From Dickeya fangzhongdai (GTDB lineage: Bacteria > Pseudomonadota > Gammaproteobacteria > Enterobacterales > Enterobacteriaceae): DNA of 64,000 nucleotides. This document shows positions 3,421 through 31,830 of this stretch, piece by piece (the stretch's first letter is position 1; every line of letters starts with the position of its first letter). Where the stretch lies: positions 4,960,001 to 5,024,000 of the forward strand of contig NZ_CP025003.1 of assembly GCF_002812485.1 (NCBI RefSeq), given 5' to 3'. The notes under the pieces were generated by a model. That model saw only the letters and a list, made by a program, of their open reading frames with translations. It did no database searches and was not told where the DNA came from. The position numbers and the translations under genes are program-made.

Positions 3421-4917
3421 ATGATACAACCCACAGCGCTGGCCGACCGTATCTCTCGTCTGAGCCATGCTCTCGAACACGGTCTTTACGAACGGCAACA
3501 CGCCATCCGACTCTGCCTGCTGGCGGCGCTTAGCGGTGAGAGCGTCTTTCTGCTTGGTCCGCCGGGGATAGCCAAAAGCCTGATTGCCCGTCGCCTGAAA
3601 TACGCCTTCCGACATGCACGCGCCTTTGAATACCTGATGACGCGCTTTTCAACGCCGGAAGAAGTATTCGGTCCGTTATCCATTCAGGCGCTGAAAGACG
3701 AAGGGCGTTATCAACGCCTGACGACCGGCTACCTGCCGGAAGCAGAAATCGTATTTCTGGATGAAATCTGGAAAGCCGGCCCCGCTATCCTCAACACCCT
3801 GCTGACCGCCATTAACGAGCGACGTTTTCGCAACGGCAACAGTGAAGAACCGATCCCGATGCGGCTGCTGGTCACTGCGTCCAACGAACTGCCGGAAGCC
3901 GACAGCAGTCTGGAAGCCTTGTACGACCGTATGCTGATCCGCATCTGGCTGGACCGGGTGCAGGACAAACACAATTTTCGCGCTATGCTCACCGCCTCAC
4001 CTGGCGAACAGGACAATCTGGTCAGCCCGGCGTTGAGCGTCAGCGACGAAGAATACCAACAGTGGCAGTCTCATATCGATCATATACCGTTGCCGGAAAA
4101 TTGCTTCGAACTGATTTATCAGTTGCGCCAGCGTCTGGACTCGCAGGACGGTTCGCCATACGTTTCCGACCGCCGCTGGAAAAAAGCCATCCGCCTGTTG
4201 CAGGCCTGCGCTTTCTTCAGCGGGCGTGAAACCATTACCCCGGTTGACCTGATCCTGCTCAAGGATTGCCTGTGGCATGACCTTGGCACCCACGATCTGG
4301 TGGAGCAGCAATTACAGCAGTTGATGAGCGAGCAGGCCTATCAGCAACGGACATTGCTGTACCGGTTGCAGCAACTGAATGTGAAACGTCAGCAATACCA
4401 GCAACAGCAGAGTGAGCAGCAAGCCTTCCGGGTTGAACGTCAGGTCAACTTTTTCGGCCGCAAACCGCATCACACGCTGCCGGAAAGCCTGACATCCACC
4501 GAACTGACGCTGATGCTGCAAAAACCGCTGCTGCTCAACGATTACACCGTAACCCACGTGGTGATCGACCGGGAAGCGCTGGCGGGCTGGCTGCAAAAAG
4601 GCGGCGAAATACGCGGCAAGCTCAACGGCGTTGGTTTTAGCCAGCGTCTGGATATGGAAGTGGATGAGCGCCAGCATCTGATCATCCGCGATATCAGTTT
4701 GCAAAGCGCCGCATTGTCTTTGCCGGGCGTAATAAAAGGCGAACTGCCGGAAGAGATGCTTCAGGAATATGAAACGCTGAAAATTCAGTTACGTGAGCAA
4801 CGCCGATTGTTTGAACGTCATCAGCCTTGTCTGTTTGTGCCTAAAGAATGGCTTGCCAGGATTGAAGAAAGCCTGCAGCAGGTCGATGAACAAATAGAGC
4901 AGTCACAACGGGAGTAA
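3421..4917 (+). CDS. ravA: MoxR-family AAA+ ATPase RavA
   Basis: AAA+ ATPase that works with the VWA protein ViaA; in E. coli the pair is linked to inducible lysine decarboxylase and to respiratory Fe-S complexes. The 498 residues equal the E. coli length. Walker A GPPGIAKS is at residues 46-53, Walker [11 protein letters not shown] at about 110-119, and sensor 1 is TASNE near 157. The C-terminal part holds the triple-helix and LARA-type regions, with a glutamine-rich stretch around residues 310-345. viaA begins 5 bp after the stop, so the two genes form one operon. Confidence 0.96.
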
Positions 4918-22256: not shown

Positions 22257-22367
22257 ATAATAATTCCCCATTCTCTACAAGGCTCGGGGAACCCGGAATA
22301 AACCGGAACAATCAGGTCTAAAGACATCGTGGTGACACAATATGTCACTTTTACAGGAATACAACCG

Positions 22368-24203
22368 ATGTGTGGAATTGTAGGCGCTGTTGCGCAACGA
22401 GATATTGCTGAGATCCTGCTGGAGGGGCTACGCCGCCTCGAGTACCGTGGTTATGACTCTGCCGGTCTGGCGGTGGTGAATGGCGAAGGACAGGTGTCCC
22501 GCCTGCGCCGTCTGGGCAAGGTGCAGGTGCTGGCGCAGGCGGCGGAAGAACAGCCGCTGGTCGGCGGAACCGGTATCGCTCACACCCGCTGGGCGACTCA
22601 CGGCGAGCCGTCCGAACAAAATGCTCACCCGCATGTGTCGGAGCACATTATCGTGGTGCACAACGGGATTATCGAAAACCATGAGCCGCTGCGCGAGCTG
22701 ATGGTATCCCGTGGTTATCGTTTTGTCTCCGAAACCGATACCGAAGTGGTGGCGCATCTGGTGCACTGGGAACAGCAGCAGAACGGCGGTTCGCTGCTGG
22801 ACATCGTGCAGCGCGTTATCCCGCAACTGCGCGGCGCGTACGGCATGGTGCTGCTGGATAGCCGCGACCCCAACGTGCTGGTTGCCGCGCGCTCCGGTAG
22901 CCCGCTGGTGATTGGCCGCGGCGTGGGCGAAAACTTCATTGCCTCCGACCAACTGGCGCTGCTGCCGGTAACCCGCCGTTTCATCTTTCTGGAAGAAGGC
23001 GATATCGCTGAAGTCACTCGTCGTACGGTACGTATCGTTAACCGTCAGGGGCAGGACGTTAATCGCGAAGAGATTGAATCAAAAGTACAGTACGACGCTG
23101 GCGACAAAGGCGCGTACCGTCACTACATGCAGAAAGAGATCTACGAACAGCCGATGGCGATCAAAAACACCCTGGAAGGGCGTTTTAGCCACGGCGAAAT
23201 CAACCTGTCCGAGCTTGGCCCGCAAGCCGATGCGCTGCTGGCAAAAGTCCAGCATATCCAGATTATCGCCTGCGGCACGTCTTACAACTCCGGCATGGTG
23301 TCGCGCTACTGGTTCGAGTCGCTGGCGGGGATTCCGTGCGACGTGGAAATCGCGTCTGAATTCCGTTACCGCAAACCGGCGGTGCGCGCCAACAGCCTGA
23401 TGATTACCCTGTCCCAGTCCGGCGAAACCGCCGACACGCTGGCGGCATTACGTTTGTCGAAAGAGCTGGGATATCTGGGCTCGTTGGCGATTTGCAACGT
23501 AGCGGGTTCATCGCTGGTGCGCGAGTCGGATCTGGCGTTGATGACCCGTGCCGGCACTGAAATCGGCGTGGCGTCCACCAAGGCGTTCACTACTCAGTTG
23601 ACGGTGTTGCTGATGCTGGTGGCGCGTATCGGTCGTCTGCGCGGTATGGATGCCCGTATCGAACACGATATCGTGCATGCTCTGCAGGCGTTGCCGGCGC
23701 GTATCGAACAGATGTTGTCGCAGGACAAGCTGATCGAATCGCTGGCGGAAGGTTTCTCCGACAAACACCACGCCTTGTTCCTGGGGCGCGGCGACCAGTA
23801 CCCGATTGCGATGGAAGGGGCGCTCAAACTCAAGGAGATCTCCTATATCCATGCGGAAGCCTATGCGGCGGGTGAATTGAAGCACGGCCCGCTGGCGCTG
23901 ATCGACGCGGATATGCCGGTGGTGGTGGTCGCACCCAACAACGACCTGCTGGAAAAACTGAAATCCAACATCGAAGAAGTCCGCGCCCGCGGCGGCGAAC
24001 TCTACGTGTTTGCCGACGAACAGGCCGGTTTCACCTCCGACAGCGACATGATGAAGATCATTCAGTTGCCGCACGTGGAAGAGGTGATTGCGCCAATCTT
24101 CTACACTGTGCCGTTGCAACTGCTGTCTTACCATGTGGCGCTGATCAAAGGCACCGACGTGGACCAGCCGCGTAACCTGGCGAAATCGGTGACGGTGGAG
24201 TAA
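22368..24203 (+). CDS. glmS: Glutamine-fructose-6-phosphate aminotransferase GlmS
   Basis: Makes glucosamine-6-phosphate from fructose-6-phosphate and glutamine, the entry step to amino-sugar synthesis. It has 611 residues (609 in E. coli). The start at 22368 puts the catalytic cysteine at position 2 (MCGIVGA), required for the Ntn glutaminase; an upstream frame start at 22329 would bury it and is rejected. The glutaminase domain shows EYRGYDSAG and [11 protein letters not shown]. Two SIS isomerase domains follow ([20 protein letters not shown]), ending [11 protein letters not shown]. The 3' end is the conserved attTn7 recognition region. Confidence 0.98.
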
Positions 24204-24230
24204 GAAGGTTTTCCGTCTAAACGACGAAAT
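24150..24230 (+). other. attTn7 target region (3' end of glmS and adjacent DNA)
   Basis: The final glmS codons ([17 protein letters not shown]) are the segment bound by TnsD/TnsE-type targeting proteins in relatives, and insertion falls about 25 bp past the stop (near 24228). No Tn7 end sequence is visible, but about 6.3 kb of accessory genes separate glmS from pstS, which are neighbours in E. coli. Confidence 0.5.
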
Positions 24231-24266
24231 CGATATTTTTCAATATCAACCTGAAAAACGAGTAAT

Positions 24267-24297
24267 AAAAGCCCTGGGGTTTATCTCAGGGCTTTTT
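24267..24297 (+). terminator. Rho-independent terminator of glmUS
   Basis: AAAAGCCCTG / CAGGGCTTTT stem with a 10-nt loop and a terminal T-run, 64 bp after the glmS stop. Confidence 0.92.
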
Positions 24298-24340
24298 GGT
24301 CACCCTATCTAAGAATGACAGGACGATTAGGTAATAAATA

Positions 24341-24562
24341 TCATTTTATTTTATTCGACAGTTCATTGAGTTTCTTTTTTATATCTTCGACTTCTCTGGT
24401 CAATTTCTCATTCTGATCTTCCAGCTTTTCTATTTTTTTCTGTAATTCATTGAAATCACGGATTTGAATTTCTGAGCGATAAATATCCCTACCGAACGTA
24501 TCAGTCACCACTATGTATTGATAGTCTCTATCTGAAGTTTCAAGATCAATAGCACTGACCAT
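24341..24562 (-). CDS. Small coiled-coil protein, possibly a frameshifted exported protein
   Basis: Not recognised. The in-frame ATG gives 73 residues: an N-terminal part (AIDLETSDRDYQYIVVTD) and a C-terminal charged coiled coil (about residues 38-73, with KKIEKLEDQNEKLTREV). Reading upstream in the same frame gives KKILIVDLFLSTSFMVSA, a good signal peptide, but it has no start codon. Two ATGs at 24615 and 24611, behind a strong AAAGGAG (24620-24626), run into the wrong frame at a run of seven A (24598-24604). One base more or less in the run would join them. It could be a pseudogene, a slippage-controlled gene or a sequence error. Confidence 0.45.
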   Translation of the reverse strand: MVSAIDLETSDRDYQYIVVTDTFGRDIYRSEIQIRDFNELQKKIEKLEDQNEKLTREVEDIKKKLNELSNKIK

Positions 24563-24696
24563 AAACGATGTGGATAAAAACAGATCGACTATGAGTATTT
24601 TTTTGCTGCATGCATGTAACTCCTTTGGGTATTAGCTCTGTTTCACTTTATACCTGTAATTAACACTTAGCTAATCAGAGAAATCTGTCTCTATTG

Positions 24697-27012
24697 TTAC
24701 TTCCATACCACCCGATTACGGCCGGCGTTTTTGGCTTCGTACAGCGCGTCGTCGGCCCGCTTCATATCGCTCTCGAAGCTGTCTTTCAGATTCTGAACAT
24801 TACGGTGTTTGATAAACGTTGCGCCGATGCTGACGGTAAAATGGAAGGAATAGCCGTCAACCGTGAACAGGGTGTTTTCCACTTCGGTGCGAATCCCGTT
24901 CATGATGGCATCGACATTATCGAGATTGGCGTTGTGGACGATCAAACCGAACTCTTCGCCGCCCAGGCGGGCGACGAAGTCGTCGGTACGCAGTTTGCCG
25001 GTAATGATCTCCGCCAGACGACAAATCGCCACGTCGCCGACGTGATGGCCGTACTGGTCATTGACCTTTTTGAAGAAGTCGATATCGATGATCGCCAGTG
25101 CGGTGTTTTTCTCATGGTTGCGGTAGCACTTTTCCGTTTCCAGAATATAGGCGCGCCGGTTATGGATGCCGGTCAGGGCGTCGGTATTGGCCATTTCCAG
25201 CAGTTTTTCTTCCAGCTCTTCTCGGGCTCGCTGGGTTTCCAGCGCGTAGAACAGCGAGCCTAACGTGTCGACGAACGGGTTGAGAAAGCGCAACTGCCGC
25301 TCGTTGTAGCCGTCGAAGCGGTTACCGAGTCCGATCATCCCCACCACCTCGTTACGGAAATAGATGGGCAACCCCATGAATTGTCGCAGGATTGGGTGGC
25401 CTGACGGCACGCCGCGCGAGGCGGAGTGGGAACGCGGCGAGTTGGTGATGACCGGTTTGCCGGTGATCACCACATGCCCGAACAGGTTGTCCAGGCTGGT
25501 GAACTGCAGTTTGTTTTGCAGAAAAGTATCGTAAGAGTTCTTGCTGTCGCCGTTCCAGCTGACGTTGGAAATGGCGACGATGTGCAGCACTTTCTTCCCA
25601 TCGTGTTCTCTGACCTGGCCGATAAAACCGAACTCCGATTCAGAGATGGAAAGCAGGTCGTCAAAGATGGACATGCAGGCTTCCTGGATGTCGGTTTTTT
25701 CCAGAAAGATCTTTTGGGCCCGGTTAATCAGCTCCAGCAGGCGTTTATCCGCTTCTTCCTGTAATTCCTTGTTTTTCTTCTCGGTAATATCCCGATGGGT
25801 GCCGGCGACCCGAATGGGTTTGCCTTTTTCGTTGTATTCCACCACCTTGCCGTAGGTTTCAATCCACACCCAGTGGCCTTTATTGTGGCGCATCCGGTAT
25901 TGCTCGTTGATCAAGGTTGCCTGACCGGTGATGCAGGATTCCGCCGCCTGCACCATTCTTTCCCGATCCAGCGGGTGCATCAGCTGTTGCCAGTAATCCA
26001 TTGAGGAGTCGAATTGGTCCTGCGTGACGCCCATCATTTCGCACCACTGTTTATTGACGCGAATGTTATGCCGCCCCAGATCCCAGTCCCAGGTGCCGAG
26101 ACTGGACGACTCCAGTACCAGCCGCATTTGGTTGTTGGTATCCACCAGCAGTTTTTGCAGGTATTTCTGGTGGGAGTTATCGATCAGCAGCGCCTGCACG
26201 TGGCTGAGTCTGCCGTTGTGATGGTAATTGGCGATGGAAAGCTGGCGAATCCACAGCGTTTTTCCCCTGGGCGACAAAAAGCGGTATTCGCATTCCAGAT
26301 TCGCCACGCCTTTTTTATGGTTATCCAGTGCAAACAGCAGGTTCTCGTAGTCGTCCGGATGGATATAGTTTTCTATCGCCGCAGTGTTATGTCTGATGTC
26401 TTCTTCGGTAATGCCCAGAACATGATGCGCATTAGGGGACATGTAGGAAATGTGCAGCATGTTGTCTTGCTGCCAGTTGATCAGCACCACGGAGGAGTTA
26501 TTCAGCAGCCGGATTTCCTGTTCCCGATGCAACTGGTCACTGTGCAATTTGAACAGGGCTTCGGTAGTGCTGGCGACGAAGGCGGCGGTTTCTCGCGTCG
26601 TGTCATCCAGTGCCCGCGGTTGATAGTCGATGGCGGCCAGGGTGCCGACCACGATCTTGTCGAGCACCAAAGGTATGCCAAAGTAACTACGGATATGCGG
26701 AGCGCCGGTAACCAGCGGGTGCTCGCAAAACTGACTGTCTGTTAGCGTATCGGGAATCGATAAGGTCGTCTCGGTGGCAATCACCGAATTGCAAAATGCC
26801 AGTTCCCGGGTAGTACATTCAATATCGATACCTTCGCTGAAAATCAGCCATTGCTTGTCCAGATCGATAATCGAGATAAACGCCGCCGGAAAATTCAGTA
26901 TCCGTGCAAATAATCTGACCTGGTTTTGAAAGGATTGCTGTAAGTGTAAGTCGAGCAAATGATATTCATTGATTTTTGCGACGCGCTGCTCATCGGTATT
27001 ATGTTTTTTCAT
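24697..27012 (-). CDS. Diguanylate cyclase with GAF-PAS-PAS-GAF-GGDEF architecture
   Basis: Predicted to make cyclic di-GMP from two GTP. It has 771 residues and no clear membrane segment, so it is a cytosolic sensor. Order: an N-terminal GAF domain (about 15-155), two PAS domains (about 165-290 and 300-420, the second ending in the PAC block IRVAGTHRDITEKK), a second GAF domain (about 430-590) and a C-terminal GGDEF domain. The active-site motif is GGEEF at about 684-688, and the inhibitory I-site R-x-x-D (RTDD) lies five residues before it, so both catalysis and product inhibition look intact. The start at 27012 follows AGGGA by 9 nt; an ATG two codons earlier (27018) is possible. Confidence 0.9.
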   Translation of the reverse strand: MKKHNTDEQRVAKINEYHLLDLHLQQSFQNQVRLFARILNFPAAFISIIDLDKQWLIFSEGIDIECTTRELAFCNSVIATETTLSIPDTLTDSQFCEHPLVTGAPHIRSYFGIPLVLDKIVVGTLAAIDYQPRALDDTTRETAAFVASTTEALFKLHSDQLHREQEIRLLNNSSVVLINWQQDNMLHISYMSPNAHHVLGITEEDIRHNTAAIENYIHPDDYENLLFALDNHKKGVANLECEYRFLSPRGKTLWIRQLSIANYHHNGRLSHVQALLIDNSHQKYLQKLLVDTNNQMRLVLESSSLGTWDWDLGRHNIRVNKQWCEMMGVTQDQFDSSMDYWQQLMHPLDRERMVQAAESCITGQATLINEQYRMRHNKGHWVWIETYGKVVEYNEKGKPIRVAGTHRDITEKKNKELQEEADKRLLELINRAQKIFLEKTDIQEACMSIFDDLLSISESEFGFIGQVREHDGKKVLHIVAISNVSWNGDSKNSYDTFLQNKLQFTSLDNLFGHVVITGKPVITNSPRSHSASRGVPSGHPILRQFMGLPIYFRNEVVGMIGLGNRFDGYNERQLRFLNPFVDTLGSLFYALETQRAREELEEKLLEMANTDALTGIHNRRAYILETEKCYRNHEKNTALAIIDIDFFKKVNDQYGHHVGDVAICRLAEIITGKLRTDDFVARLGGEEFGLIVHNANLDNVDAIMNGIRTEVENTLFTVDGYSFHFTVSIGATFIKHRNVQNLKDSFESDMKRADDALYEAKNAGRNRVVWK

Positions 27013-27329
27013 TGTCATCTTTCCCTTAAAAAACAAATAAAATCAGTGTATTGCACTCCTGGTAACAAAACAGAAAAATGCGTCTGCTAGGCTCGGTTAT
27101 AAAAAGTGGAAACATCCTGTAGGGGAGTTGGGTCCTGACGTGAGAGCGCTGTTTTTTCAGCGACATATCTGAGTATAGAACAGGTTTTTTTATCGCTGGG
27201 CTATATAAGTAATTTAGTGTTTTAGTGCTTTTTGTTATTCATATTGGTTTTCTTGCAGGAATTAAATAAAAAAACCTCCCTGCTTCTTAAGGCATGGGGA
27301 GGTTTTTTTATAAACGCTATACTATTAGG
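27013..27329. other. Gap upstream of the cyclase gene and downstream of the ATPase cassette
   Basis: 317 bp, AT-rich, with no ORF worth calling. It should contain the promoter of the cyclase gene, but none stands out clearly. At its right end is the terminator of the cassette (27268-27309). Confidence 0.6.
27268..27309 (-). terminator. Rho-independent terminator of the three-gene ATPase cassette
   Basis: AACCTCCC-TGC ... GCA-T-GGGGAGGTT forms a GC-rich stem with A-runs on the left and T-runs on the right, so it is symmetrical. It ends about 20 bp from the cassette stop codon and can act on the minus strand. Confidence 0.88.
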
Positions 27330-28766
27330 TCAGGACTTTTGTGGTTTTACCCCACCTTTTCTGCCTAACCCAAAGCCAACACGATAGAGATCGGGCATAT
27401 CAATACGCTCGCTGTTACGTTCTTCAAACACGCCTATTCTTAACAAATCCAGTTTTAGGCCCGGCCAGCCTTTCTGGGCATGCTGAGGAGGTAACTTGTT
27501 TGGATTTTCCGGCAGTCCTTGAGAAAACTCCTCATTCCAACGCTGTTGTATTACGCTGAAATCAATGGGTACGTTGAGCCCGTTCAAGGGAGTTAAGAAC
27601 TCGTTTACCCACGGATAGTCTTCAGTCAGTTCGCTGACCCTGATTTCCGATGCCTTTTGAACCCCACGTTTAATACTTTCATAGTGCAACGAGTAGGTAT
27701 AGTCCGGGTACCGCTCCATTGAGTCTTCGGCTGCTTGCCGTATAGCAGCTAAAAATGAGCGAGGAGACGTTCGCCCTTTTCCGTCTGCCAGATGACTAAC
27801 GGCCCAGACATAAGGGACACCACGACGGCGATCCTTGCCCATCCACGGCCCGGCTAGCGCTTCAAATAATTCTCTTTGTGATGGCGTTTCACGCTTTACA
27901 TCATCATGCGGCACAAAACGGGAATCGGAATGCTCAGGTGGTTTATTCAAGGTTCGGTTATAGCACTCGCGCAGCACATCACCATGTGATGTTTCACCAT
28001 TAATCAGGTATTGCCATAGCAGGCCATGCAAGTCATGCCTTGCCCAGGATAGTTCAGCTTTGGTGGCAAGCAACTTGGAGGCATCAGGAAAATCGGTAAC
28101 AGTTCTTTCCAGTTGGTCTTCGCGTAAAAAGACTTTGGCGGTAAGACGGCTGTATGGTTTTAGCCACAAGACAACCCGTAATAGACCACGCACGATATTA
28201 TCCATTACCGACCAATCAGTACTGAGTCTGTCGAGCGCGTCAAACAAAATCAGGGCGTAGCGACCATTTCCCTCTAACGATTGATTGGCCTGAGACATGG
28301 CTGCTGCAATATTTTCCGGATTTTGCTGTACCCAAGATATTTTTTCTGACCACTTTGCCTGTTGAGCCAACAGTGGCTGCTGGGTTAGTTTGCCGATGCC
28401 TGATATGACAATCGTGCGCCAGATATCATAGGCATCAAAGCTCTCTACCAATTGAGAAAATGTATCTGAGTCTGGATACGCGTCATTCTGTGGCCGCTCT
28501 GAAAATCCGATATGAATGTCTGTAATATCCAATTGTGGAATTGATGAACCTAGCACTTTACGCAAAGCAGGATCGCCAAGCGCTGCCGTCCAAACAGATT
28601 TCCCGACTCCACGTGTGCCCACCACCAGTAAACTTTCCGGCCTTAGTGCTTTTAAATGCGCAGGCGGAATGTAGAGGTGTTTTAATGGCGGCGCAGACCC
28701 GCTGTATGAGGTATCCGCAGGTAAGGTTTCATAAATGGCTCGACGGATATCTTCTGCGCTACTCAT
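27330..28766 (-). CDS. P-loop ATPase of unknown function (cassette gene 3)
   Basis: Not assigned to a named family. It has 478 residues. Walker A is GTRGVGKS at about residues 50-57, and a Walker B-like strand YALILFDALDRL lies near 170-181. The rest is mainly helical with no membrane segment. A STAND- or KAP-like regulatory ATPase is possible, but the C-terminal part is not recognised. ATG at 28766 sits 6 nt after GGAG; the preceding ATG (28769) is closer than usual. The start overlaps the end of the ParA-like gene by several bases, so the two are translationally coupled. Base composition looks lower in GC than the core genes. Confidence 0.75.
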   Translation of the reverse strand: MSSAEDIRRAIYETLPADTSYSGSAPPLKHLYIPPAHLKALRPESLLVVGTRGVGKSVWTAALGDPALRKVLGSSIPQLDITDIHIGFSERPQNDAYPDSDTFSQLVESFDAYDIWRTIVISGIGKLTQQPLLAQQAKWSEKISWVQQNPENIAAAMSQANQSLEGNGRYALILFDALDRLSTDWSVMDNIVRGLLRVVLWLKPYSRLTAKVFLREDQLERTVTDFPDASKLLATKAELSWARHDLHGLLWQYLINGETSHGDVLRECYNRTLNKPPEHSDSRFVPHDDVKRETPSQRELFEALAGPWMGKDRRRGVPYVWAVSHLADGKGRTSPRSFLAAIRQAAEDSMERYPDYTYSLHYESIKRGVQKASEIRVSELTEDYPWVNEFLTPLNGLNVPIDFSVIQQRWNEEFSQGLPENPNKLPPQHAQKGWPGLKLDLLRIGVFEERNSERIDMPDLYRVGFGLGRKGGVKPQKS

Positions 28767-30072
28767 CATGCTCTCCGGGATGATTGGTTAAACCTTGAAT
28801 ACCCTCAATTAACGTGCCGAAAATTGACTGAACTTCGGCGGAGTCTATCGTGTTTTGCGCAAATCGGGAATGTAGCGACGTTAGCGCGGAGAATCCTCTG
28901 TTCCAGCGAATCGCCCACGGATAGTGTGGTGCTGCTTCGTCGTTCATCTCGAAGCTGAACAGATTCTCCACTGTTTCACCCGGTGGTACTTCGTCATAAA
29001 GTGTGGAGGAAAACAGTTCGTAAGCGTTTTCACACAACCCGGAAAAGTAGCTCTCGCGTCGTTCGTCATCAGGAATCATGGCACCGATAAGTTGCAAACG
29101 CTCACGGATATCAGCGGCTTTGCCTGATCGGTTCCAGTATTCAAATAACACCCGATATCCTGACCAGGTTTGCTCGCCATCCAGTGTAAACAGTAACACG
29201 GTATTGGCGCCGATATCGGTAACGCAACTGGATGCGACTTCATCTATTCCAGAGCGTGAGTCGATCAAAATCACATCAGGCTTAATCGTTTCTTCTAACT
29301 GGTCAATCAGGCGATTGAGTCGGTGAGACCAGCTTTCCCGGTTTCCGTTACTGTCTATTTTGGGCATCCAGACTCTGCCCAGCTTGGCGATATATTCTCC
29401 CGGATTTTTGCCATGTGCCGGTATCACGTAAATGTCGCCGTCATGGGATAGCGTACTGGTGGCGATCATGTCATCAAGCAGGCTGTTGCCATTATCGACC
29501 AGATCTTCCACCAGCCAGTCGGCGATGCCATAAGTTGGGCGACGGTCTTCCGGTAGCAAGGCGGTAGATAAGCCAGGAGACTCAAGATCCAAATCAAGAA
29601 CCATGACTTTTTTACCGGCTTGCGCCAGCGCCCATGCGCAAGCGGCCATCGCGGTTGAGCGGCCAACGCCGCCTTTGATAGAAAAAAAGACAATGCGACT
29701 GGCGCCTTCAGACTCTGGTGTGATCATATCCCAGCGGCTTTCCGTCGCTAATCTGTCAACCACATAGACGCCGGGAATATCGGCAAGCGCAAAATGGGCT
29801 GCGCGTTGATAAACCGATTCGACATTGGGTTCATATAAGACGGTGTTATCTGGAGCAAAGCTGTGAGGCGACAGTTCAGTTGAAAATTGTGCGGCAATCG
29901 TGTCAATCGCAGCCTGATGTTCGGGATTGTTCTGAATCGATTCGGAAGCGATTAACCTGACTTTACCGTTCAGATCTCGGTTGATTGCCACGGGTTCAAT
30001 CTGACTGATAAGATCAGTGTGAGGTTTAAGAATGCCTTCAATAGTAGGCAAAAGCTGGTCGAAGGTTTTCAT
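28759..30072 (-). CDS. ParA/MinD-like ATPase with variant KGGVGRS P-loop (cassette gene 2)
   Basis: Member of the SIMIBI (ParA/MinD) ATPase class. It has 437 residues. About 125 N-terminal residues of unknown fold precede the ATPase core. The deviant Walker A is KGGVGRST at residues 133-140: the signature lysine is kept, but the usual P-loop lysine before S/T is arginine. Further motifs are VLDLDLESPGLS (158-169) and DVILIDSRSGIDE (about 255-267). It resembles a group that I recall being labelled the KGGVGR-motif variant AAA ATPases. It overlaps the upstream gene by ATGA and the downstream gene by about 8 bp. The chromosome's own partition genes would not lie here, so a non-partition role is likely. 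Confidence 0.8.
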   Translation of the reverse strand: MKTFDQLLPTIEGILKPHTDLISQIEPVAINRDLNGKVRLIASESIQNNPEHQAAIDTIAAQFSTELSPHSFAPDNTVLYEPNVESVYQRAAHFALADIPGVYVVDRLATESRWDMITPESEGASRIVFFSIKGGVGRSTAMAACAWALAQAGKKVMVLDLDLESPGLSTALLPEDRRPTYGIADWLVEDLVDNGNSLLDDMIATSTLSHDGDIYVIPAHGKNPGEYIAKLGRVWMPKIDSNGNRESWSHRLNRLIDQLEETIKPDVILIDSRSGIDEVASSCVTDIGANTVLLFTLDGEQTWSGYRVLFEYWNRSGKAADIRERLQLIGAMIPDDERRESYFSGLCENAYELFSSTLYDEVPPGETVENLFSFEMNDEAAPHYPWAIRWNRGFSALTSLHSRFAQNTIDSAEVQSIFGTLIEGIQGLTNHPGEHDE

Positions 30073-30485
30073 ATCGCGCCGTCCGTTTTAGCTTGTTTAA
30101 GTATATTTTGGACTTGTTTGGCTCCGTTGCGATGTTTTTCTGCCTCAATTTGTGTGAACTGTTGTTGGTTGCTGTAACGTTGTGACGCTTTCCAGTTATC
30201 GAAAGGATTTAGTGAAGATAAAAGATACTCAGCTCCGGGGTAGCGGCCACTACGGTATGCATCGTAACGTGACCAAATAGCATCAATATGCTTTTGGTCG
30301 TGGCGTTCACTGGGCATGTCCCTATTCGTGTCAAAGGGCATACCAAACTCCTGCATCAACTTTTTTAACCCGCTCTCTGCCGAGAAGCCATAAAGATGAT
30401 CGGCATTGGCCCAGCGTCCCAGATGAAACAGGATTTCTGCATCTCTCCAGTGGCGATGACAGGCGTCTTCAAAGTCGGTTGCCAT
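30069..30485 (-). CDS. Small HEPN-like protein (cassette gene 1)
   Basis: 138 residues, not assigned to a named family. The N-terminal helices (HWRDAEILFHLGRWANADHL, then FSAESGLKKLMQEFG) look like the first half of a HEPN four-helix bundle. R61 and H66 in SERHDQKHIDAIW form an R-x4-H motif, the catalytic signature of HEPN ribonucleases. The C-terminal half contains SSLNPFDNWKASQRYSN. It is the first gene of the cassette and ends in ATGA overlap with the ParA-like gene. A strong AAAGGAG lies 12 nt before the ATG, longer than optimal. The HEPN call is inference from pattern. Confidence 0.65.
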   Translation of the reverse strand: MATDFEDACHRHWRDAEILFHLGRWANADHLYGFSAESGLKKLMQEFGMPFDTNRDMPSERHDQKHIDAIWSRYDAYRSGRYPGAEYLLSSLNPFDNWKASQRYSNQQQFTQIEAEKHRNGAKQVQNILKQAKTDGAI

Positions 30486-30789
30486 GACTGTGCTTCACTC
30501 CTTTGGTCAGAGACGGACATATTCAAGGTCTAAATAGCATGTGTGACAAGCGATTTTACCGGAACTGGGGATTCATAGAAGTATATCGTTGAAAGTATTG
30601 TATAGATTGTTAAATAAATGCTTGCCTCTGCCAGGCAGGCATACCCAGTTCTGACTCGACTGTCACACAACTGTCATATTGCGTACATTTTACTGTCACC
30701 GAATTGACCTATTTTCTCCACCAGCAAACTACACTCTGATTAAACAATAGCTCCGGGTCTACACGTCTAAGTATCCCACAGGAGGGATT
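30486..30789. other. Divergent control region between the cassette and pstS
   Basis: 304 bp. The right half holds the Pho boxes and promoter of pstS. The left half should hold the promoter of the minus-strand cassette, but no strong hexamers are obvious. No ORF is supported. Confidence 0.7.
30660..30703 (+). promoter_or_regulatory. Tandem Pho boxes (four 11-bp PhoB units) of pstS
   Basis: Four consecutive 11-bp units: CTGTCACACAA, CTGTCATATTG, CGTACATTTTA and CTGTCACCGAA. Units 1 and 2 form a perfect 18-bp Pho box (CTGTCA-N5-CTGTCAT), and the third degenerate unit matches the E. coli pstS layout. A -10-like TATTTT at 30710-30715 follows, as expected for PhoB-activated promoters without a -35. 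Confidence 0.95.
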
Positions 30790-31830
30790 ATGAAACTCAT
30801 GCGTACCACTGTTGCCAGTATCGTTGCTGCAAGTTTTTCTCTGACGGCGGTTTCTGCTTTTGCCGCGGCAAACCTCACTGGCGCAGGTGCGACGTTCCCC
30901 GCTCCGGTTTATGCAAAGTGGGCTGATTCTTACGAAAAAGAAACCGGCAACAAAGTTAACTATCAGGGCATCGGTTCTTCGGGCGGCGTGAAACAGATTA
31001 CCGCCAAAACCGTGGATTTTGGTGCGTCTGATGCGCCGTTGGCGGATGACAAACTGGCTCAGGACGGTCTGTTCCAGTTCCCGACCGTGATCGGCGGTAT
31101 CGTACTGGCTGTCAACGTGCCGGGCGTGAAAGCCGGCGAGCTGACGCTGGACGGCAAAACGCTGGGTGACATCTACCTGGGCAAAATCAAGAAATGGAAC
31201 GACGAAGCCATCGCCAAACTGAACCCGGGCGTGAAACTGCCGGATCAGGACATCGCTGTGGTGCGTCGTGCCGACGGTTCCGGCACCTCCTACGTGTTCA
31301 CCAGCTACCTGGCTAAAGTGAACAGCGAGTGGAAAGAGAAGATTGGCGCGGGCAACACCGTAAACTGGCCGACCGGTCTGGGCGGTAAAGGCAACGACGG
31401 CATCGCGGCGTTCGTGCAGCGTCTGCCGGGGTCGATCGGTTACGTTGAATACGCGTACGCCAAGCAGAATAACCTGGTTTACACCAAGCTGATTTCTGCC
31501 GACGGCAAAGCAGTCAGCCCGACGGAAGGGTCTTTCAGCAATGCCGCCAAAGGCGTTGACTGGAGCAAGTCCTTCGCACAGGACCTGACCAACCAGAAAG
31601 GCGCCGATGTATGGCCGATCACCTCTACCACTTTCATTCTGATTCACAAAGAACAGAGCAAGCCTGAGCAGGGCAAAGAAGTGCTGAAGTTCTTTGACTG
31701 GGCTTACACCAAAGGCGGCGATCAGGCCAAAGCGCTGGATTATTCTACCCTGCCGAAAGAAGTGATTGCTCAGGTACGCGCAGCATGGAAAACCCAGATC
31801 AAAGACAGCAGCGGTAAAGCGCTGTATTGA
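30790..31830 (+). CDS. pstS: Phosphate-binding periplasmic protein PstS
   Basis: Captures inorganic phosphate for the PstSCAB importer. It has 346 residues. The signal peptide ([20 protein letters not shown] ending SAFA) is cut near residue 25, leaving [19 protein letters not shown]. Phosphate-binding blocks include [20 protein letters not shown] and [12 protein letters not shown]. The ribosome site CAGGAGGG is strong. It is the first gene of the Pho-regulated operon. Confidence 0.97.

Follow-up and report, generated by a model that had tools for sequence, protein, structure and literature searches.

What does a three-gene operon between a diguanylate cyclase-type gene and the pst promoter do in Dickeya fangzhongdai, and is it an immune system? 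We analysed a stretch of 64,000 nucleotides from this genome (the window; contig NZ_CP025003.1, positions 4,960,001 to 5,024,000), in which an original prediction, made from the letters and their open reading frames, had singled out three minus-strand genes as a defence or abortive-infection cassette. The genes, called A, B and C here in order of transcription, are the following.

30069..30485, minus strand: gene A, a 138-residue HEPN protein (PDC-M28A), from the open reading frame list, PADLOC match, predicted fold and conservation
28759..30072, minus strand: gene B, a 437-residue SIMIBI ATPase with a KGGVGRS P-loop (PDC-M28B, NF047398), from profile matches and conservation
27330..28769, minus strand: gene C, a 479-residue ORC/BrxC-like AAA+ ATPase (PDC-M28C), from PADLOC match and predicted fold

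In PADLOC-DB 2.0.0, the three proteins matched PDC-M28A (1.4e-54), PDC-M28B (8.1e-185) and PDC-M28C (5.1e-210), in adjacent genes and over nearly their full length. By these profile matches the trio is PDC-M28, a phage defence candidate of the PADLOC catalogue, from which the Dickeya trio shows no difference in composition. It is consequently not new as a system, and the earlier remark that it corresponds to no named system has to be withdrawn. As a working definition, membership was taken as M28A, M28B and M28C matches in adjacent genes. We predict that PDC-M28 is probably a horizontally moving, three-gene immune module of the abortive-infection type. The evidence that bears on this directly is the predicted folds of A and C, the conservation of A, the motifs of B, the co-occurrence of the genes, their patchy distribution and their embedding in a defence locus.

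The literature searched gave no function for PDC-M28, and no paper on PDC-M28 or KGGVGR was found. Nor did the alternative HEPN site, the embedding or the likeness of C to ORC and BrxC, all described below, turn up in print, in a search that lay outside the Payne 2024 preprint, which introduced embedded candidates according to the available part of PMC13356809. The passages available of PMC13092281 held no mention of ParA, KGGVGR or SIMIBI, and the accessible text of PMC12839542, on BREX-related (BR) systems, none of SIMIBI, MinD or KGG. Validation is described as pending for the majority of core-set PDCs (PMC12988326, in part), while some PDCs coincide with published systems (PMC11811056, in part).

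Conservation of the trio as a unit

Only B was used to retrieve loci, which gave 80 (a capped set) of the 145 found in bacterial genomes and 4 in viral contigs. Among the 87 loci tabulated, 86 have A upstream of B and 86 have C downstream of it, and both misses fell at contig ends, in support of the trio as a conserved unit. In a deeper set of 19 loci, including the window, A was found in 18 and C in all 19; at the locus without A (L146), a short frame upstream carries an A-like W...RY. Since the unit recurs across phyla, the arrangement is more than chance. Some copies of A are fragmentary, with a match shorter than 100 residues in 8 of 86 loci, and that of L031 has stops.

Pairwise distances over 68 loci were correlated for A and B (r 0.50), B and C (0.78) and A and C (0.49), with 0 of 2000 permutations as high. 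This is as expected for joint inheritance, although shared ancestry of the hosts can have the same effect. Median identities over the same loci were 0.54 for A and 0.55 for both B and C. On a quick tree of B (80 rows, 3 ungrouped), 11 phylum-level groups gave 16 label changes against a minimum of 10, which fits some horizontal transfer and is no proof of it.

Individual loci varied in arrangement. At L135:85-2832, B and C form a single frame of 915 residues, and this fusion suggests that the two proteins act together. A second, divergent trio lies at L097:8268-11430, in opposite orientation and a few kb from the first, and a distant A-B-C trio (L180:4366-7696) sits on a conjugative Enterobacter plasmid with an integrase gene adjoining.

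Folds and motifs of the three proteins

Structure prediction gave A a HEPN helical bundle, in agreement with the HEPN-like character first proposed for the small protein. Helices are predicted at 25-46 and 67-79, with H66 just before helix 3. The proposed R-x4-H is there as R61...H66, and only its histidine is conserved: H66 occurs in 75 of 75 and R61 in 21 of 75. We consequently rejected R-x4-H as the active site, and A lacks the conserved Rx4-6H motif of the HEPN superfamily. E37, K41 and R103 are each present in 75 of 75. An AbiV/AF0298-type site, as defined in the available part of PMC3710099, has a histidine between helices 2 and 3, a basic residue, and Ex3[KR] in helix 2, and A has each of these. 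Judged from the alignment, the conserved polar set of A is an alternative HEPN site (E37-x3-K41, H66, R103-Y104).

A thus shares with AbiV and AF0298-like HEPN-T proteins the HEPN fold, the alternative histidine in the insert between helices 2 and 3, a conserved basic residue and Ex3K. It differs in scoring only 16.4 bits against Pfam HEPN_AbiV (PF18728), below the curated cut-off of 27.1; 18 of 28 members of the family matched at E<=0.1, the best of them at 1.2e-4. In the table of PMC3710099, a source available in part, the row for AbiV names no operon partner. A PDB sequence search with A returned one weak match and no HEPN protein. Public records for A of the window and for P0002-P0006, P0020, P0021 and P0029 call the protein a S-adenosylmethionine-dependent methyltransferase; the model and motifs say HEPN, and the label is likely a misannotation that has spread.

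Sequence matches in Pfam, NCBIfam and the PDB assign B to the SIMIBI/ParA type, the PDB matches being ParA/MinD/ArsA-type proteins aligned over the P-loop region. It scored 201.3 bits against AAA_KGGVGR (NF047398; cut-off 90), and with its KGGVGRS motif it is the 437-residue SIMIBI ATPase with a variant P-loop that had been described. This deviant Walker A motif retains its first lysine, K133, and has R138 in place of the P-loop lysine, in 84 of 84 loci (B matches of at least 580 bits), a count that is partly built in, as one of the two locus-fetching patterns held a KGGVGR-type motif. D160, D162 and D271, which lie outside the fetching patterns, are likewise found in 84 of 84 each. Because the P-loop lysine is an arginine, B probably binds ATP as a slow or one-way switch. 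Inactive MinD/ParA-like domains occur in other conflict systems (PMC7159879, in part).

C was modelled by AlphaFold from 63 sequences with a pLDDT of 94.1. The top Foldseek matches were Aeropyrum ORC2 (9.8e-7) and BrxC of BREX (1.9e-6), followed by eukaryotic ORC and further AAA+ proteins; the matches to ORC and BrxC had low TM-scores, at 0.28-0.40 of the query. On its modelled fold, C is an ORC/BrxC-like AAA+ protein, probably with a C-terminal winged helix, which we read from secondary structure alone. Its Walker A residues G51, R53, G54, G56 and K57 are invariant in the 79 sequences that cover these positions, and every position of FDALDR is conserved in 77 to 80 of 80 (C matches of at least 500 bits). 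By sequence, C is related to the Sll1717 ATPase family (NF047389) and falls outside it, at 63.1 bits against a cut-off of 75; the PDB search gave weak matches only.

Distribution and genomic surroundings

Within Pseudomonadota, PDC-M28 was detected in 18 of 398 genomes at E<=1e-40 (13 of the 338 of good quality), and within the class Gammaproteobacteria in 5 of 369 at E<=1e-100. Three of nine Dickeya genomes carry the trio, all at one common site; each of these counts takes in the window's own genome. No blastn match to the trio was found among 20,395 E. coli records. Three Dickeya genomes (G002, G003, G005) have the GGDEF gene followed by pstS, with roughly 170-290 bp in place of the segment listed below. 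Given this patchy presence and the three empty sites, we rejected the idea of a housekeeping locus shared by all relatives; such a locus would have refuted the original prediction. The remaining features of the site are as follows.

27266..27311, minus strand: intrinsic terminator of the operon, from folding energy against shuffles
27197..30649, no strand: segment missing from three other Dickeya genomes, which have about 170-290 bp instead, from genome comparison
30486..30789, no strand: intergenic region between gene A and the divergent pstS, from sequence

The layout of the operon stands largely as first described. All three frames are open throughout, A and B overlap by 4 bp, and the reported overlap of about 8 bp between B and C and length of 478 residues for C, a P-loop ATPase with a conserved Walker A, hold from the second ATG of C; from the first ATG the overlap is 11 bp and C has 479 residues. 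The operon has its own terminator, as claimed: a stem between T runs at -22.7 kcal/mol (z -4.8, 200 shuffles), which a simple consensus scan with a loop limit of 8 missed. The claimed neighbours are also present (names by eye): pstS lies upstream and divergent, and the gene downstream, on the strand of the operon, is of GGDEF type. The intergenic region holds, on the plus strand at 30660-30680, a repeat that we take to be Pho-box-like. The 64-kb window has no tRNA gene, so integration at a tRNA was rejected, and 24000-31000 has no structured RNA at the Rfam gathering score. LexA regulation was rejected as well, since LexA-like sites with at most one mismatch numbered 16 in the window against 17.2 expected, with none in 30486-30789.

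The surrounding interval varies among the Dickeya genomes. G001 and G006 lack the GGDEF gene as well as the trio, and in G004 glmS does not neighbour pstS; the remaining eight genomes have glmS-pstS intervals from about 0.9 to 21.8 kb. G003, G005 and G007 (L122, L123, L125, L126) have, by eye, a biosynthetic cluster between glmS and the GGDEF gene, fatty-acid-synthase-like and about 15 kb long, which is absent from the window. In G008, about 120 extra bases lie near the B/C junction (L127 near 4760-4880). The trio is beside or near glmS in L072 and L073 (near-identical), L082, L101 and the window (22329-24203), surroundings that are presumably the attTn7 neighbourhood.

Of 84 loci, 11 have the trio flanked by a DUF1156 methylase on one side and a PLD helicase on the other, named from NCBIfam for L037 and L101. 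Six of these (L025, L043, L053, L061, L074, L099) have an incomplete or split flanking gene, several at contig ends. Judged by gene content, these neighbours fit the Type-2 BR systems described in the available part of PMC12839542. DUF1156 likewise stands upstream in 2 of 4 additional Gammaproteobacteria loci, one of which begins within B. PADLOC families at E<=1e-10, counted as families and not genes, numbered 152 for 120 neighbour genes of 31 loci versus 16 for 124 control genes of 31 same-contig regions. Many other loci resemble single insertions beside housekeeping genes, for example between dedD and cvpA-purF in Serratia (L055, names by eye). The gene directly upstream of A on the same strand was one of DNA repair or processing in L026, L027, L032, L044, L049, L052, L057 and L066. 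These 8 of 44 loci (xseA, yifB, uvrA twice, umuC, uvrD, recR, mfd) compare with 1 of 441 control genes, the seven families having been picked after they were noticed; in further loci the count was 0 of about 12 (names by eye), so the association was not replicated.

Proposed mechanism and rival explanations

With moderate confidence, we read the trio as an abortive-infection-type module in which A is the RNase effector and B and C supply ATP-driven control and sensing. In this scheme C, probably with a terminal winged-helix DNA-binding part, would detect DNA that is foreign or perturbed; B would couple C to A as a slow or one-way switch; and A would be released or assembled to cut RNA through its alternative active site, which would stop the infected cell. 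The RNase activity of A, the part that senses, the trigger, the order of action and the arrest of the cell are all what we infer. Two known arrangements are similar to this one in part. The fold predicted for C resembles BrxC of BREX, and the embedded loci, with DUF1156 and PLD helicase, are like the DUF499-centred, BREX-related Type-2 BR systems; in contrast to these, the trio is also free-standing, and Dickeya has no DUF1156 methylase. Tentatively, PDC-M28 might be a portable guard module, in which an ORC/BrxC-like AAA+ sensor and a SIMIBI switch lacking the P-loop lysine hold a non-canonical HEPN RNase, acting on its own in hosts such as Dickeya and as a built-in fallback in DUF1156/HKD-helicase (Type-2 BR) systems when these are blocked or bypassed.

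Several observations weigh against the immune reading. The canonical HEPN RNase motif is missing from A, whose best Foldseek E-value is a weak 0.046, and effector A is never exchanged for another in the loci examined. The proposed defence role is supported by embedding in a known defence locus for a minority of loci; most are not visibly in defence islands, and the genes upstream of the trio are often housekeeping. DUF1156 was upstream in 0 of 18 deeper loci (L131-L148, 1.5-kb flanks only), and 0 of 9 Dickeya genomes have a homologue, so that the Type-2 BR methylase is absent there. The listed neighbour families have at most 3 members each, and the PADLOC excess therefore comes from few loci. 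Finally, two other PADLOC candidates, PDC-M63AB and PDC-S04, had no defence activity in their host (PMC12409345, in part), and a PADLOC listing is accordingly not proof.

The alternative that survives best, unlikely as we consider it, is a toxin-antitoxin-like or addiction module, in which A is the toxin and B, with C, the antitoxin, and which maintains itself or its host islands with phage defence secondary. For the MAE_18760 dyads, predicted toxin-antitoxin systems with a HEPN gene in an operon with a SIMIBI ATPase, like A and B, a ParA/Soj-like ATPase was proposed as the presumed antitoxin (PMC3710099, in part), and the plasmid-borne distant trio beside an integrase gene would suit such a role. 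The MAE_18760 HEPN family keeps Rx4-6H and has two genes according to the same source, whereas PDC-M28 is without the motif and has a constant third AAA+ gene, which places the trio outside these dyads. Against the addiction reading, three conserved genes with two ATPases are heavy for a simple toxin-antitoxin pair, and the conservation of A is about equal to that of B and C.

It is less probable still that A is a non-catalytic HEPN adaptor, binding nucleic acid or nucleotide for B and C while the ATPases do the active step. The missing Rx4-6H motif and the variable R61 speak for it, and inactivity is presumed for HEPN domains that lack conserved polar residues (PMC3710099, in part), but the polar residues at the alternative site stay the same even among deeply diverged copies. 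Least probable is a cellular stress or DNA-damage regulator, co-transcribed with housekeeping genes and not involved in immunity: the upstream repair genes that favour it belong to families chosen post hoc and did not recur in further loci, the trio is patchy, no LexA-like site lies upstream of A, and the trio is embedded in a defence locus.

For the immune module that we favour, a catalogued but uncharacterised candidate gains a testable anatomy, with an alternative HEPN site, a constant Lys-to-Arg P-loop and an ORC/BrxC-like partner, and a likely methyltransferase misannotation of A in public records is flagged. PDC-M28 bears on an idea put forward in 2013, that HEPN proteins may still cleave RNA when they lack Rx4-6H. 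It also bears on why a single trio occurs on its own as well as within a BREX-related locus.
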